In this document: one piece after another, positions 19,092 to 23,929 of the stretch | Layout: the number at the start of each line of letters is the position of its first letter | How positions within the stretch are numbered: the first letter of the stretch is position 1 | Origin: Dietzia timorensis | GTDB lineage: Bacteria; Actinomycetota; Actinomycetes; Mycobacteriales; Mycobacteriaceae | Assembly: GCF_001659785.1 (NCBI RefSeq) | Contig: NZ_CP015961.1 | Span: 2,976,001-3,040,000 of the forward strand | DNA: 64,000 bases | Direction of reading: 5' to 3' | Made by a program: the position numbers and the translations under genes | Notes under the pieces: model-generated | Seen by the model: only the letters and a program-made list of their open reading frames with translations | The model's database searches: none | What the model was told of the DNA's origin: nothing

Positions 19092-20503
19092 GAGCGCGCC
19101 GCCTCCCCGCCATCGACACCGCCGCCGGGGCGAATGATTTCCCCGGCGGCCCGCGCCCCGGATTCCAGCGCACCTTCGAAATAGCCCGTGAACTCACGGG
19201 CTATTTCCGTACCGGCCCAGTGCACGCGGCCGTGGGGCTCGGCGAACGAGGCATCGTGCGTGGTGATCGCGCCGGGCACGAGGTGCGCCGCATACCCGCC
19301 GCGCGCCCACTCTTCCTCGCGCCACACGCATTCGGTGTAATCGACGGGTTCGGCTGCGGCCTCACCGAAGATCGCCACGAGGTCGCCGATGACCTCCTCG
19401 CGCCGGTCCTGTGTGGACATTTCCGCCAGCCGCGTGGCGTGCTCGGCCTCGATGAGCGCGACGAGCACGCCCGCCCCCGCGTGGTCGCCGGCGCCCTCGC
19501 CGGCATCGAAGACGACTCCGATGGCGAGGTCCAGGCCGAGCGCGGAACCACTGAGACCGCCGCCACGCCAGAACGGCGCCTCGTACGCCACGTGCACCTT
19601 GATCACCTCGCCCATCATCTGCCGCCGCAGCAGATTCTGCCGCCGCGCCGGCAGTGCCGGCGAGAAGTCGATCTCGGCCACCAGCGGAGGCGGGACGGCG
19701 ACGATCGCCCTGCGCGCGCGGAATTCGTCGGCACCCGCACCTCCGGCGCCGGTAAATACGGAGACCCCGGCGTCATCCTGGGTGATTCTGCGCACCGGCT
19801 GCCCGAGGCGCAGCGCGCCGGCAAGCTCCTCGCCGAGCGCCTCGGGCAGGCTCCACGCGCCACCGACGACGACATCCTGCTGGGCGCCGCCGGCGACGGC
19901 GACCATCGATTCGAGACCACCGCCCTGCCGCACGATTTCGAGAAAGTGCAGGTAGGACACTTCCGCTAATGGCGCGCACACGATCGCCGCGATCGCCACG
20001 CGCAGCAGCTCGCGTGCGGGAACCGAGCGCACGTGCCGCCGCAGCCAGCCTTCGACGGTGAGCGCGTCGAGTATCGCCGACCGCGTCGCCATGTGCGGCA
20101 GCGCCCCTTCGGGAAGGTTCTTGACGTCGGCGGCAATGCGCCTCTGCGCCAATGCGACCTCGGCGAGCGCCACCTTCGGCAGCGGCGGGAGCGCGCCCGC
20201 GTAGGACTTCGCCCGCCCGCCGCGGTGCAGCATCGCGTCCCCCTCGTCGAATTGCGGGGCGAGCTCGATGCCGCGTTCCTTGGCGGCGGCGCGGTAACGG
20301 TGGTGCTCGGCACCGATCCACTGACCGCCGTGGTCGATCCGCCGACCGACGATCTCGCCGGGCTTGCAGCGGCCGCCGACGCGGTCGCTCGCCTCGAGGA
20401 CGAGGACCGTCTTGCCGGCGCGGCGCAGCTGGGTGGCGGCGCTCAGCCCCGCCAAGCCTGCGCCGACAACAATGACGTCTACATCTTTACCCTCAGAGCC
20501 CAC
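19088..20503 (-). CDS. FAD-dependent amine oxidase-like protein
   Basis: A 471-residue flavin amine oxidase. The N-terminal FAD site is VVGAGLAGLSAATQLRRAG with a downstream Glu in LVLEASDRVGGR, followed by HGGQWIG; the C-terminal FAD segment contains GRVHWAGTEIAREFTGYFEGAL, typical of monoamine/polyamine oxidases. No covalent-flavin Cys is evident. The GTG at 20503 has GGAGG nine bases upstream and overlaps the end of the L7/L12-like gene. It probably oxidises an amine or polyamine, but the substrate is unknown. Confidence 0.82.
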   Translation of the reverse strand: MGSEGKDVDVIVVGAGLAGLSAATQLRRAGKTVLVLEASDRVGGRCKPGEIVGRRIDHGGQWIGAEHHRYRAAAKERGIELAPQFDEGDAMLHRGGRAKSYAGALPPLPKVALAEVALAQRRIAADVKNLPEGALPHMATRSAILDALTVEGWLRRHVRSVPARELLRVAIAAIVCAPLAEVSYLHFLEIVRQGGGLESMVAVAGGAQQDVVVGGAWSLPEALGEELAGALRLGQPVRRITQDDAGVSVFTGAGGAGADEFRARRAIVAVPPPLVAEIDFSPALPARRQNLLRRQMMGEVIKVHVAYEAPFWRGGGLSGSALGLDLAIGVVFDAGEGAGDHAGAGVLVALIEAEHATRLAEMSTQDRREEVIGDLVAIFGEAAAEPVDYTECVWREEEWARGGYAAHLVPGAITTHDASFAEPHGRVHWAGTEIAREFTGYFEGALESGARAAGEIIRPGGGVDGGEAARS

Positions 20504-20765
20504 CTTCGACCGCCTCCTTCGCGTCCACGAGGTTCGCACCCGTGCGCTCGCGGTACGCCTTGATCGCGCCTATCTTCTTCCCCTCGCCGAGCAGTCGCTT
20601 CTCCTCGTCGGCCAGCGGCGCACCCGTCGCGACGATCGTCGGGGCCGACGAACGCGTGGGCTCGATACCGAGCTTCTCGCACAACTGCGCGATCGTCTGC
20701 TCGTGCGCGGCCACCTGGGCCTCGAGTCGGTGAATCCTGCGTGCGCTGTCGTTGAAGCCGAACAT
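20493..20765 (-). CDS. Small protein with ribosomal L7/L12 C-terminal-like motif
   Basis: A 90-residue protein: an N-terminal helix with heptad-like spacing (RIHRLEAQVAAHEQTIAQL), then IGAIKAYRERTGANLVDAKEAVE, which resembles the C-terminal factor-binding helices of ribosomal L7/L12. Such stand-alone proteins are common in actinobacteria; they are not the ribosomal stalk itself. Function is unknown. Translation is likely coupled to the amine-oxidase gene, which it overlaps by 11 bases. The ATG at 20765 was chosen over a GTG three codons earlier because GGTGAG fits it. Confidence 0.65.
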   Translation of the reverse strand: MFGFNDSARRIHRLEAQVAAHEQTIAQLCEKLGIEPTRSSAPTIVATGAPLADEEKRLLGEGKKIGAIKAYRERTGANLVDAKEAVEGGL

Positions 20766-20844
20766 GGTTCTCACCCTACGGAGAATTCGTCACCCCAGCC
20801 CGGCCCCGAGCGGCCCACCCCGCCGCTCCATTACGCTGAAACGT

Positions 20845-23166
20845 GTGACTGACTCCGCCGAGCTGACCCTGACCCTGCGCGTGCTCGCGTCGGCCTCCGA
20901 CGCGCGGCGCGGCATCGTCCGCCTCCACCCCGAAGTCCTCACCGCCCTGGGGATGCGCCAGTGGGACGCGCTCGAGCTCGTCGGCGCACGCACCACCGCC
21001 GCTGTCGCCGCGGCCTCGCCGATGGATACCTCGCAGGCCCTGTGCATCGTCGACGAGGTCGTCGCCGCGAACTGCGGGCTCACCGACGACAGCCGCGTCG
21101 TGGTGCGTCCCGCCGAGGTCATCGGCGCCACCGAGGTCATCGTCGACGGCCCGCGCCTGGCCCAGGCCACGGTCACCGAGCGCGTGCTGCGCTCGGCGCT
21201 GCTCGGCAAGGTTGCCCGCGTCGGCGACTCGCTCACCCTCATGCCGCGCGACCTCGGCCCCTCCTTCCCCACAGGCGACACCACGCGCACCCTGTCGAAC
21301 TACCTCGGCGCCGCGTGGTCCTCGCAGCTCATCACCGTCACCGCCACCGAGCCGGCCGGTTCCGTGTCCATCCGCCCATCGACCGCCGTGCGCTGGGTCT
21401 CCGATGCCGCGGCGCCGGCGGCGTCCCCGTCCCCCGCCGGTTCGAGCACGTCGCCCATGACGTCGGACGCCACATCCACCGGCCCCCGGTCCTCCCGGAC
21501 CTCGTCGACGGGAAGCGCCACGCGGTCGCGGTCCGCGGCGGCCGCCTCTCCGTCCGCCTCGTCCACTGCGTCCTCCTCGATCGCGGACCTCGCGCGCACC
21601 GAGATCGAGCGCGTCGACCGCGACCGCCTCGTCGGGGTCGCCGAGCAGGCCGAGACGCTCGAGGGATGGCTACGCCTCGCCCTCGACAGGCCCGAACTCT
21701 TGCAGACTCTCGGGGCGGCGGCGCACCTCGGCGTCATGGTGACCGGTCCGGCGGGTGTCGGAAAGGCGACAGTCGTGCGAAGCGTCTGCGGAGACCGTCC
21801 GTGCGTGGCGCTCGACGGGCCGCTCACCGGTTCGCTGTCGGCCGAACAACGGCTCGAGGCCGTGCAGGCGCTAGCCGCGGAGGTGCGCTCCGGCGGCGGC
21901 GTACTGCTCATCAACGACGTGGACGCGTTGCTGCCGGCCACTCCGGAGCCCGTGGCCACGCTCATCCTCTCCGAGTTGCGCGATGTCGCCGCGGCCCCGG
22001 GCGCCGCTCTCGTGGTCACGGCCGTGACCGCCGAGTCCGCCGACTCCCGCCTGCGCGCGCCCGATCTCTGCGACCGCGTTCTCGACCTGCCGCTCCCCGA
22101 CGCCTCCGCGCGCGAGGGCATCCTCGAATCGCTGCTCGCGGACGTCCCGCAGGGCGAGCTGGATTTCGAATCCATCGCCGCGCGCACCCCGGGCTACGTC
22201 GCCGGGGACCTGCGAGCGCTGTGCCGCGAGGCCGGGATGCGGGCCGCGGGCCGCGCCGGCGAAGACACCGACCCGCGCATCGAACAGGACGATCTCGACG
22301 GCGCGCTGCGCGTTATCCGACCGATGTCGCGGTCGGGCATGGAGGAGGTCTCGCTCGGCTCGATCACCCTCGACGACGTCGGCGATATGGTCGAGACCCG
22401 CCAGGCGCTCACAGAGTCCGTGCTGTGGCCGCTCCAGCACCCCGAGTCCTTCCAGCGCCTCGGCATCGAGCCGCCACGCGGGGTGCTGCTCTACGGTCCG
22501 CCGGGCTGCGGCAAGACCTTCCTCGTCCGCGCCCTCGCCGCGTCCGGGCAGCTCACGGCGCATATCGTCAAGGGCGCCGAGCTCATGGACAAGTGGGTCG
22601 GCTCCTCGGAGAAAGCGGTGCGCGAGCTGTTCCAGCGCGCCCGCGATTCGGCGCCGTCGCTCATCTTCCTCGACGAGGTCGACGCCCTCGCCCCGCGCCG
22701 CGGGCAGTCCTCGGACTCCGGTGTTGGCGACCGTGTCGTCGCGTCGCTGCTCACCGAACTCGACGGCGCAGAGCCGCTCACCAACGTCGCGGTACTCGGC
22801 GCCACCAACCGTCCCGAGCTCATCGACCCGGCGCTGCTGCGCCCCGGCCGCCTCGAGCGCCTGGTGTTCGTTCCGCCGCCGGACGCAGACGCGCGCGGGG
22901 ACATCCTGCGCACCGCCGGACGCGACGTGCCGCTCGCCGAATCCGTCGACCTCGACGCGCTCGCCGCGGATCTCGACGGCTACTCGGCCGCCGATTGCGC
23001 CGCACTGCTGCGCGAGGCGGCGATGACGGCGATGCGCCGCGATCTCGACGCCGCCGAGGTCACCGGCTCCGACATCACCGCCGCACGCTCGTCGGTCCGC
23101 CCGTCGCTCGATCCCGCGCAGGTCGAGTCCCTGCGTACCTACGCCGATTCCCGGTCCGGGGACTAG
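20845..23166 (+). CDS. Cdc48/p97-like AAA ATPase with degenerate first ATPase domain
   Basis: A 773-residue tandem AAA protein: an N-terminal double-psi-barrel-like domain (to about 185), a Ser/Thr/Ala/Pro-rich linker (about 189-249), D1 and D2. D2 is complete: Walker A GPPGCGKT (from 551), Walker B IFLDEVDAL (Asp610), GATNRPE and an arginine-finger region RPGRLERLVFVP. D1 is degenerate: GPAGVGKA ends in Ala instead of Ser/Thr, and Walker B reads LLINDVDAL with Asn357 at the Asp position. D2 is therefore probably the motor. The GTG at 20845 follows TACGCT by seven bases, so a leaderless mRNA is likely. Related to M. tuberculosis Rv0435c by memory. Confidence 0.88.
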   Translation: MTDSAELTLTLRVLASASDARRGIVRLHPEVLTALGMRQWDALELVGARTTAAVAAASPMDTSQALCIVDEVVAANCGLTDDSRVVVRPAEVIGATEVIVDGPRLAQATVTERVLRSALLGKVARVGDSLTLMPRDLGPSFPTGDTTRTLSNYLGAAWSSQLITVTATEPAGSVSIRPSTAVRWVSDAAAPAASPSPAGSSTSPMTSDATSTGPRSSRTSSTGSATRSRSAAAASPSASSTASSSIADLARTEIERVDRDRLVGVAEQAETLEGWLRLALDRPELLQTLGAAAHLGVMVTGPAGVGKATVVRSVCGDRPCVALDGPLTGSLSAEQRLEAVQALAAEVRSGGGVLLINDVDALLPATPEPVATLILSELRDVAAAPGAALVVTAVTAESADSRLRAPDLCDRVLDLPLPDASAREGILESLLADVPQGELDFESIAARTPGYVAGDLRALCREAGMRAAGRAGEDTDPRIEQDDLDGALRVIRPMSRSGMEEVSLGSITLDDVGDMVETRQALTESVLWPLQHPESFQRLGIEPPRGVLLYGPPGCGKTFLVRALAASGQLTAHIVKGAELMDKWVGSSEKAVRELFQRARDSAPSLIFLDEVDALAPRRGQSSDSGVGDRVVASLLTELDGAEPLTNVAVLGATNRPELIDPALLRPGRLERLVFVPPPDADARGDILRTAGRDVPLAESVDLDALAADLDGYSAADCAALLREAAMTAMRRDLDAAEVTGSDITAARSSVRPSLDPAQVESLRTYADSRSGD

Positions 23167-23229
23167 CCGGACGACCGACTCCCCGGACCCTCACAGATCC
23201 CACAATGCGGAATGCCGCGTCCGAAAGTA

Positions 23230-23258
23230 TTGCCTTCCATCCACACGAGGGCTAGTTT
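23230..23258 (+). promoter_or_regulatory. Promoter of the leucine leader transcript
   Basis: TTGCCT (23230-23235) and TAGTTT (23253-23258) are 17 bases apart. Transcription would start about six or seven bases later, at the ATG of the leader peptide, so that peptide would be translated from a leaderless RNA. Confidence 0.5.
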
Positions 23259-23264
23259 CGAACC

Positions 23265-23315
23265 ATGCGCTTTTCCATCCTCCTCGTAGGCAGACGCAGC
23301 GAGGTCCAGCACTAG
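23265..23315 (+). CDS. Leucine-type leader peptide (16 aa)
   Basis: A short reading frame encoding MRFSILLVGRRSEVQH, with consecutive Ile-Leu-Leu-Val codons. Branched-chain residues in a row are the signature of attenuator leader peptides. The codons from AGA to the stop lie in the 5' arm of a strong RNA helix (see the RNA feature), so ribosome position during Leu/Ile/Val shortage would alter folding. It lies 84 bases upstream of a LeuA-domain gene. No Shine-Dalgarno is needed if the RNA is leaderless. Confidence 0.65.
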   Translation: MRFSILLVGRRSEVQH

Positions 23316-23398
23316 GACCGACACCTCGCTCGCGTCTCCTCGTCGTATGTCGGTCGAAGCCCCAAAGGCTCCCGCTCCACGAGGAAGACTTCAGATCG
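23292..23398 (+). ncRNA. Leader RNA with helix, pseudoknot and sequestered ribosome site (LEU-element-like)
   Basis: Pairings read from the sequence: helix A joins 23292-23305 with 23323-23337 (AGACGC/GCGTCT and AGCGAGGT/ACCTCGCT, one bulged C at 23331). The loop of helix A contains GACCGAC (23316-23322), exactly complementary to GTCGGTC (23349-23355): a 7-bp pseudoknot. Helix B joins TCCTCGT (23337-23343) with ACGAGGA (23379-23385), covering the GAGG upstream of the next gene's ATG. A leader peptide running into such a pseudoknot resembles the LEU elements predicted upstream of actinobacterial leuA. Likely action: translation control of the downstream gene by leucine supply. Confidence 0.6.
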
Positions 23399-23929
23399 AT
23401 GGAACAGTTCACCCGCACTTTCACCGCCGCCCAGGCGGAATCGCATTCCCCGGCGTCATCGCGCACCACCACCGAACGTCGCATACACCCCTACACCAGG
23501 CGTTTCGAGCGCCCGCTGCCGCCGGCATTTGCCGCGGAATCGGCGGGCATGACCTGGCGCACCTTCTGCTCCACCTACGCCCCGGAGAACGGTCCGCTGC
23601 GGCTGCGCGACTGGAACGACCGCGCGCTCGGCCGCGGCGAGCACCACTTCGAGGCGATCTTCAGCACCACCTGCTCCGACGCTTCCGCGGTCCGTGCGCA
23701 GGCCACCGCCTCCGGCGCGATCGCCGCATGCAGCGAAATGCTGCACGGCCTGGGCTACGGCATCGAGATCGAGCGTTTCCACCAGCACCACCGCGGATCC
23801 ACGTGGGCGACGATGCTCTATTGCACCACCGGCGGCAACCCCGAGGGTGCTTGGGCGATCGGCCTCGGCGAAAACAGTGCCGAAGCGTCCGTGAAGGCGA
23901 TGCTGTCGGCGGTCGCGCGGCTGTACTGA
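23399..23929 (+). CDS. Stand-alone 2-isopropylmalate synthase (LeuA) regulatory-domain protein
   Basis: A 176-residue protein without the TIM-barrel catalytic part of LeuA. Residues about 80-175 resemble the C-terminal leucine-binding dimerisation domain: repeated beta-alpha units, EMLHGLGYGIEIERFHQH, then GAWAIGLGENSAEASVKAMLSAVARL, which parallels the WGVGI-x-TAS-LKA-SAVNR stretch of mycobacterial LeuA. It may sense leucine or form mixed dimers with LeuA. The leucine leader upstream supports a link to leucine synthesis. The N-terminal 60 residues are basic and unassigned. Confidence 0.65.
   Translation: MEQFTRTFTAAQAESHSPASSRTTTERRIHPYTRRFERPLPPAFAAESAGMTWRTFCSTYAPENGPLRLRDWNDRALGRGEHHFEAIFSTTCSDASAVRAQATASGAIAACSEMLHGLGYGIEIERFHQHHRGSTWATMLYCTTGGNPEGAWAIGLGENSAEASVKAMLSAVARLY

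Follow-up and report, generated by a model that had tools for sequence, protein, structure and literature searches.

Within a 64,000-nucleotide stretch of the Dietzia timorensis genome (contig NZ_CP015961.1, positions 2,976,001 to 3,040,000; hereafter the window), a leader RNA with a short open reading frame (ORF), a hairpin, and a pseudoknot precedes a gene encoding only the C-terminal part of LeuA. By sequence comparison, this RNA is homologous to the LEU element described upstream of actinobacterial leuA, for which a protein factor was favored by the authors (Seliverstov 2005; PMC1262725), and it seems probable that the locus represents a paralogous, re-tuned LEU element that is read by the ribosome and controls translation of the stand-alone LeuA regulatory protein. 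Unlike the known elements, the one in the window does not lie upstream of leuA itself; the single full-length leuA of this 3.61-Mb genome (one contig) is found at another site and has its own leader, MQRALLLRCRGGANF. As far as can be judged from the sequences, the novelty would lie in a known RNA element placed on a new target gene and combined with a codon switch, and searches of the open-licence literature yielded no account of a LeuA regulatory protein that stands alone, nor of a LEU element before its gene.

The features of the locus are summarized in the table below. In hairpin P2, GACGCAGCGAGGT (23293-23305) pairs with ACCTCGCTCGCGTC (23323-23336) and A23292 with T23337, forming a helix of 14 bp with one bulge (assigned by eye), while GACCGAC at 23316-23322 pairs exactly with GTCGGTC at 23349-23355 to give a 7-bp pseudoknot. 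The stop codon of the leader peptide is located at the P2 loop. The ribosome-binding site region ACGAGGAAGA (23379-23388) is complementary to the leader codons TCCTCCTCGT (23278-23287) at 9 of 10 positions (by eye), and the minimum-energy fold holds seven of these pairs and also joins TTCCATC (23273-23279) to GATGGAA (23398-23404) around the start codon. Another copy of CTCCTCGTCG, at 23336, could serve as partner instead. A base stem of the LEU type, in which leader codons pair with the Shine-Dalgarno box, is present in both sequences that were scored for it, the window and a Dietzia relative. When 23345-23401 is folded alone, the strands of a possible competing hairpin, P3, are paired (-14.1 kcal/mol). 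The leader, the 14-bp helix, the exact pseudoknot, and the masked ribosome-binding site had all been recognized in the initial annotation and are found in sequence and fold at the places given there.

Features of the locus in the window (positions count from the first nucleotide of the window)
Feature	Position	Strand	Basis and remarks
-10-like box TAGTTT	23253..23258	+	sequence; leader ATG follows after 6 nt
Leader peptide ORF MRFSILLVGRRSEVQH + TAG	23265..23315	+	16 codons; ATG 23265, stop TAG 23313-23315
Leader segment complementary to the ribosome-binding site and start-codon region	23273..23287	+	fold, sequence
Putative regulatory codons Ile-Leu-Leu-Val (ATC CTC CTC GTA)	23277..23288	+	sequence and leader comparison
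Hairpin P2, 5' arm	23292..23305	+	fold, covariation
Pseudoknot loop strand GACCGAC	23316..23322	+	sequence, covariation
Hairpin P2, 3' arm	23323..23337	+	fold, covariation; one bulged base
Pseudoknot downstream strand GTCGGTC, doubling as 5' strand of competing hairpin P3	23349..23355	+	sequence, covariation
Possible competing hairpin P3, TCGGTCGAAG (23350-23359) with CTTCAGATCGA (23389-23399), which would close off the start codon region	23350..23399	+	fold
Ribosome-binding site region ACGAGGAAGA	23379..23388	+	sequence; gene ATG follows after 10 nt
Stand-alone LeuA C-terminal part (linker remnant and regulatory domain), 176 aa	23399..23929	+	profiles, structure model

The distance of 6 nt between the -10-like box and the leader start codon suggests that the transcript is leaderless, probably beginning at the leader ATG. 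Among 106 related leaders, 77 have a TANNNT box 5 to 9 nt ahead of the start codon compared with 1.2% of 4157 random upstream positions, and 19 of the 29 leaders without such a box are Nocardia-like sequences whose start is uncertain. A consensus scan of 23150-23450 found no terminator-like site, so that the Rho-independent terminator with a U-tract of a classical attenuator is missing from this interval.

The strongest evidence for homology to the LEU element comes from a covariance model (R1) that was built from 55 stand-alone leaders, including the window and no leuA leader. Across 200 genomes of the order, R1 gave 124 matches in 92 genomes at E<=0.01, and of the 123 matches besides the window, 95 precede full-length leuA, 27 precede the stand-alone domain, and 1 could not be placed. 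One model thus finds both leader classes, and since it detects 95 leuA leaders that it was never trained on, the element in the window is homologous to the LEU element, as its LEU-type architecture had initially suggested. In its own genome, the window scores E 5.7e-9 and the next match E 5.8, but the former value is not independent because the window is among the 55 training sequences, so that the independent support lies in the cross-detection of leuA leaders and in covariation. The leader of the organism's own leuA scored 18.3 bits as the best match in its 4-kb locus with filters switched off and was missed in the genome scan and at E<=0.01. The unplaced leader (L268 in genome G191, 151-283, MRFVIILLCRGGT) has neither leuA nor the stand-alone domain within 2.3 kb downstream, and a transporter-like ORF (by eye) lies there on the opposite strand. 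Five genomes (G049, G062, G096, G122, and G194) each carry two leuA genes, both with their own LEU-type leader.

The association of leader and stand-alone gene is similarly consistent. A protein search of 61 genomes gave matches in 47, full-length LeuA included, and a leader ORF lies ahead of the short gene in 29 of the 30 loci retained (window included), the 30th being cut by the contig end. A scan of the genome contig collection with the window protein detected no close relatives, and a leader DNA pattern used instead found at least 119 matching stretches; the 80 pattern loci listed come from Mycolicibacterium, Nocardia, Rhodococcus, Williamsia, Dietzia, and other genera. The domain follows within 1 kb of the leader in 117 of 119 pattern loci (78 of the 80 listed), as scored with a profile built solely from the 61-genome set. 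Of the two others, one (L037) is cut 156 bases past the leader, and the other (L109, 2243 bases, Streptomyces) looks like a chance match. In a protein-profile search of 200 genomes of the order (the same ones as far as listed), the short gene scored above 90 bits in 28 genomes among the top-scoring matches listed; all 28 belong to the window's family, and in all 28 an R1 match stands ahead of the short gene. For two genomes of this family in which leuA has a leader (G088 and G225), no short gene was among the matches listed. Short frames in G213 and G116 (50 to 59 bits, LeuA-like scores, other families) lie at contig ends and were excluded from the 28. It is next to impossible that the locus merely combines chance hairpins with a small ORF: the folding z score of the window is just -2.3, but cross-detection, covariation, and the pairing of gene and leader in 28 of 28 genomes among the matches listed refute this idea.

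Compensatory base changes in homologous leaders were sought and found. Alignment A4 (74 matches from 75 chosen sources, comprising 67 leuA leaders, five stand-alone leaders, the window, and the unplaced leader) was fitted to a model that contains P2 and P3 and leaves the pseudoknot outside its structure. Both-side changes occur there in 10 pairs compared with 5.3 in shuffled alignments (0/500) and at most 4 in slid versions, and the paired fraction of cells is 99.6% for P2 and 94.4% for the pseudoknot. Alignment A2 holds 55 of the 106 collected leaders, with near-duplicates and three doubtful starts (L055, L059, and L111) dropped and the Streptomyces match never included; many of its leaders were collected with a search pattern in which letters of the leader and the P2 5' arm are preset. 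In A2, the paired fraction of cells is 99.3% for P2 and 99.7% for the pseudoknot, one pseudoknot pair varies between AU (26), GC (17), and GU (11), and both-side changes are seen in two P2 pairs and one pseudoknot pair. Its covariation score is 0.223 versus 0.176 for shuffled alignments (0/500), with 16 pair types versus 14.5, which is not significant (68/500). An outer helix, P2a (GUAGU with GCUAC), is paired in 81% of A2 cells. Many stand-alone relatives, compared with the leuA element, have a second GACC beside the ribosome-binding site, and the resulting P3 helix (GGUC with GACC) is paired in 92.9% of cells versus 24-52% in slid versions. As a universal switch partner, P3 was rejected: it is supported by its position, weak against shuffles (p 0.48 in the window, not significant), and weaker still in leuA leaders.

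The two leader classes differ in their codons. Leaders of leuA keep Leu-Leu-Leu, as in VQRVLLLGRRDGV and VARALLLRCRDGA (85 of 95 by a simple parser). Peptides were called by simple rules that yielded none for 8 of 92 leuA leaders, and the parser did not read LLL in the remaining 10 of 95. Most stand-alone leaders have Val-Val, not a leucine run, at the corresponding place before the hairpin, as in VPRRLVVATRSGV, MKRILVVHRRSGV, and MRKILVVTGRNGA. Val-Val is found in 50 of 56 stand-alone leaders (three of them, L158, L176, and L185, read by eye), made up of 26 of 29 in the 61-genome set and 24 of 27 in the R1 set of 200 genomes; at least one valine codon is present in all 56, LLL in 1, and LVV in 39. 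Most valine codons are GTA, which accounts for 53 of 58 in 29 leaders compared with 2.6% of valine codons in seven genes of the window. The window itself, with Ile-Leu-Leu-Val and its two leucine codons, is an exception among stand-alone leaders. The initial label of a leucine leader peptide may apply to this sequence but does not describe the family, in which Val-Val predominates and leucine can be lost.

The valine codons could alternatively be a by-product of helix P2a, with the element sensing leucine through its leucine codon, as initially supposed. P2a is paired in most cells of A2, and the frequent LVV motif holds a leucine codon. We nevertheless consider this quite improbable since several stand-alone leaders carry Ala, Phe, Val, Gln, or Asp in place of the core leucine (AVV, FVV, VVV, QVVV, and DVV) while every leader retains at least one valine. 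For the one genome of the window, whose codons are an outlier, a leucine reading may still apply, and so may the initial suggestion that leucine supply governs synthesis of a leucine-sensing modulator.

The most likely mode of action is attenuation at the level of translation by a reading ribosome, re-tuned towards valine. In this model, ribosomes would translate the leader on a probably leaderless transcript starting at the leader ATG. Pausing at the codons for branched-chain amino acids (mostly Val-Val among relatives, Ile-Leu-Leu-Val in the window) would leave P2 intact so that its GACCG loop could capture GUCGGUC in the pseudoknot and keep the ribosome-binding site free. A ribosome that reaches the stop codon in the P2 loop would break both P2 and the pseudoknot, and the ribosome-binding site would then be closed by the leader codons, by P3, or by both. 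The stand-alone protein would consequently be made when Val-tRNA (and Leu- or Ile-tRNA) is short. Because translation of the leader would end at the P2 loop and because P3 shares a strand with the pseudoknot, a pausing and a finishing ribosome would leave different structures behind. We infer the sensing by ribosome pausing, the direction of the switch, the transcript start, the partner, and the ligand. In a calculation that included 61 of the 95 leuA leaders (in one of which no pseudoknot was found), the site is more accessible in the state "stalled plus pseudoknot" than with the ribosome at the stop codon in 36 of 55 stand-alone and 41 of 60 leuA leaders.

Alternatively, a LEU-type RNA might be read by a protein or ligand and not by a translating ribosome, so that the leader codons would matter as RNA letters alone. 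A protein reader was argued for from published leuA mutants (PMC1262725), and the pairing of the codon stretch with the ribosome-binding site and within P2a means that its letters are constrained by base pairing. Nonetheless, codon identity follows the class of the downstream gene (LLL for leuA and VV for the stand-alone gene) whereas both classes share P2 and the pseudoknot, GTA persists in leaders with an altered P2a (that of the window as well as L180, L181, and L186, by eye), and a -10-like box is frequent just ahead of the start codon. We thus regard this alternative as rather unlikely.

Several observations nevertheless weigh against a ribosome-read switch re-tuned towards valine. Its direction is weakly supported, with accessibility lower by more than 0.1 in 7 stand-alone and 9 leuA leaders, and the window itself goes the wrong way (0.45 in the stalled state with pseudoknot versus 0.51 with the ribosome at the stop codon). 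Mutations in the Streptomyces coelicolor leuA leader had some effect, though not the one that classical attenuation predicts (Craster 1999, as summarized in PMC1262725). P3 shows no covariation, and few leaders (13 of 53 stand-alone, 8 of 58 leuA) have a P3 that beats shuffles at p<=0.05, and the three pairs with both-side changes in A2 are not significantly more than the 1.7 of shuffled alignments (92/500). The fold of 23260-23410 in the window (z -2.3, with 4 of 200 shuffles equally stable) is weak on its own and only moderately better than shuffles, so that the case rests on comparison with relatives. The codon counts, in turn, are counts of sequences and not of independent events, with 22 of the 29 leaders of the 61-genome set coming from Dietzia, and since GTAGT also lies within P2a, part of the conservation of the valine codons may be structural. 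Finally, a scan for the sigma-70 consensus found no promoter-like site in 23150-23450.

Among characterized systems, the ilvB1 leader of Mycobacterium tuberculosis is a close precedent: in the accessible part of its description, the regulatory codons are LVVI and GUA is regulatory (PMC13236596), a resemblance to the branched-chain leaders described here with their putative GUA regulatory codons. The two differ in that the ilvB1 leader uses a terminator with a U-tract, which has no counterpart in 23150-23450, and the same part of that paper reports no pseudoknot for ilvB1. Translation attenuation of cysteine genes in Mycobacterium smegmatis is also covered there (PMC13236596). A leader peptide that forms without a ribosome-binding site is reported for ilvBNC of Corynebacterium glutamicum.

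Homology of the 176-aa protein to the LeuA C-terminus, with the catalytic part missing, is well established by sequence and structure comparison. Residues 51-174 match NCBIfam NF002991 (LeuA) with E 5.6e-7 and 28.6 bits (whole-protein cut-off 455), and searching with a profile built from nine members of the family recovers 1sr9/3fig, structures of M. tuberculosis LeuA, at E 1.3e-7. An AlphaFold2 model from a 43-sequence alignment has a mean pLDDT of 91, and its top Foldseek match is the leucine-bound LeuA structure 3fig (E 4.3e-9, 162 columns, TM 0.69 by query length). A Pfam scan of the protein at 1e-3 gave no match, including to PF08502 (LeuA_dimer). These results bear out the initial proposal of a protein that consists of the LeuA regulatory part alone, sharing the fold and core motifs of the LeuA regulatory domain (PF08502; 1sr9, 3fig) but differing from it in the missing catalytic part, a partly changed pocket, and a divergence that places it below Pfam detection. 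Between 43 family members and 90 LeuA C-termini, the conserved core comprises P41, the GP-AA stretch, L115, G119, W152, and A167, and the LP...W..F...Y stretch that serves as linker in LeuA is retained.

Leucine binding by this domain, as assumed in the initial description, is putative. According to the accessible part of PMC2704214, leucine-contacting positions of M. tuberculosis LeuA are L535, A536, V551, Y554, A558, and the A565/A567 region. When these are mapped by eye, L535 (I108), A536 (A109), and V551 (I124) are kept in kind, whereas Y554 is replaced by F127, A558 and the A565/A567 region differ, and the family has new near-invariant residues that are specific to it: E123 and T138 are present in 43 of 43 and H128 and Q129 in 42 of 43 members. 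The GNGP and SEHA stretches of LeuA are altered as well. Together with gene neighborhoods that differ among genera (six loci), these changes could suggest that the protein has no partner LeuA and acts as sensor or buffer of another ligand in its remodeled pocket. We consider this somewhat unlikely because the core fold, the linker remnant, the GP-AA motif, and W152 are kept and because control by a LEU element would tie the protein to branched-chain amino acid supply.

The protein, a remodeled LeuA regulatory domain, may instead act in trans, most likely on LeuA itself or in competition with LeuA's own regulatory domain. HisZ, the regulatory protein of ATP phosphoribosyltransferase, offers an analogy as a separate regulator of a biosynthetic enzyme. 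Its fold is not known to be related to the LeuA regulatory domain. Given that leader and C-terminus are both of the LeuA type, the stand-alone gene looks like a leuA copy that retained these two parts and lost the middle. In a fuller scenario that we put forward tentatively and regard as fairly improbable, leuA and its leader were duplicated, the catalytic part was lost, and Leu-Leu-Leu was changed to Val-Val; the regulatory protein made at low valine would then join or replace LeuA's own regulatory domain and throttle LeuA, sparing 2-ketoisovalerate for valine. A second LeuA C-terminal domain was also observed in a 263-aa frame of another genome (G029:C1:337683-338057 and 340815-341189), with a score equal to that of a nearby 619-aa leuA frame. 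It possibly represents a recent partial duplication like the one proposed for the stand-alone gene.

In the window, the stand-alone gene is flanked by genes for a CDC48-like AAA ATPase and for Na+/H+ antiporter subunit A. The ATPase gene (20752-23166, encoding a CDC48 N-terminal domain and two AAA stretches) lies directly upstream of the leader on the same strand, and next to it 20493-20774 (-) encodes a 93-aa protein. The C-terminal end of the latter has a weak similarity to the C-terminal domain of ribosomal L7/L12, which at 24.6 bits does not reach the Pfam cut-off of 25.9. The neighborhood of the stand-alone gene varies across genera, and a search for a conserved arrangement in six loci compared by eye found none. 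Among the 80 loci listed, 18 have an isocitrate/isopropylmalate dehydrogenase-family gene near the stand-alone gene; all are Nocardia (e.g., L064, L084, and L103; 18 of 23 Nocardia loci listed), with other genes intervening in the locus inspected. An Rfam scan of the whole window gave no family at gathering score.

The working of the LEU element has been an open question since puzzling Streptomyces leader mutants were described and a protein factor was proposed (PMC1262725). The occurrence of one RNA fold twice in a genome with different codons (in most of the genomes compared, LLL at leuA and VV at the stand-alone gene) amounts to a natural codon-swap experiment: a response of leuA and stand-alone leaders to different amino acids would mean that it is the ribosome that reads them. 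We further suggest a part in branched-chain amino acid control for a family of proteins from Mycobacteriaceae (Dietzia, Rhodococcus, Nocardia, Williamsia, Mycolicibacterium, and others) that is undescribed in the open-licence literature searched. If the duplication scenario is true, these organisms would possess a regulator that arbitrates in trans between valine and leucine synthesis at their branch point, where both pathways share the precursor 2-ketoisovalerate, and that operates via re-tuned attenuator codons.
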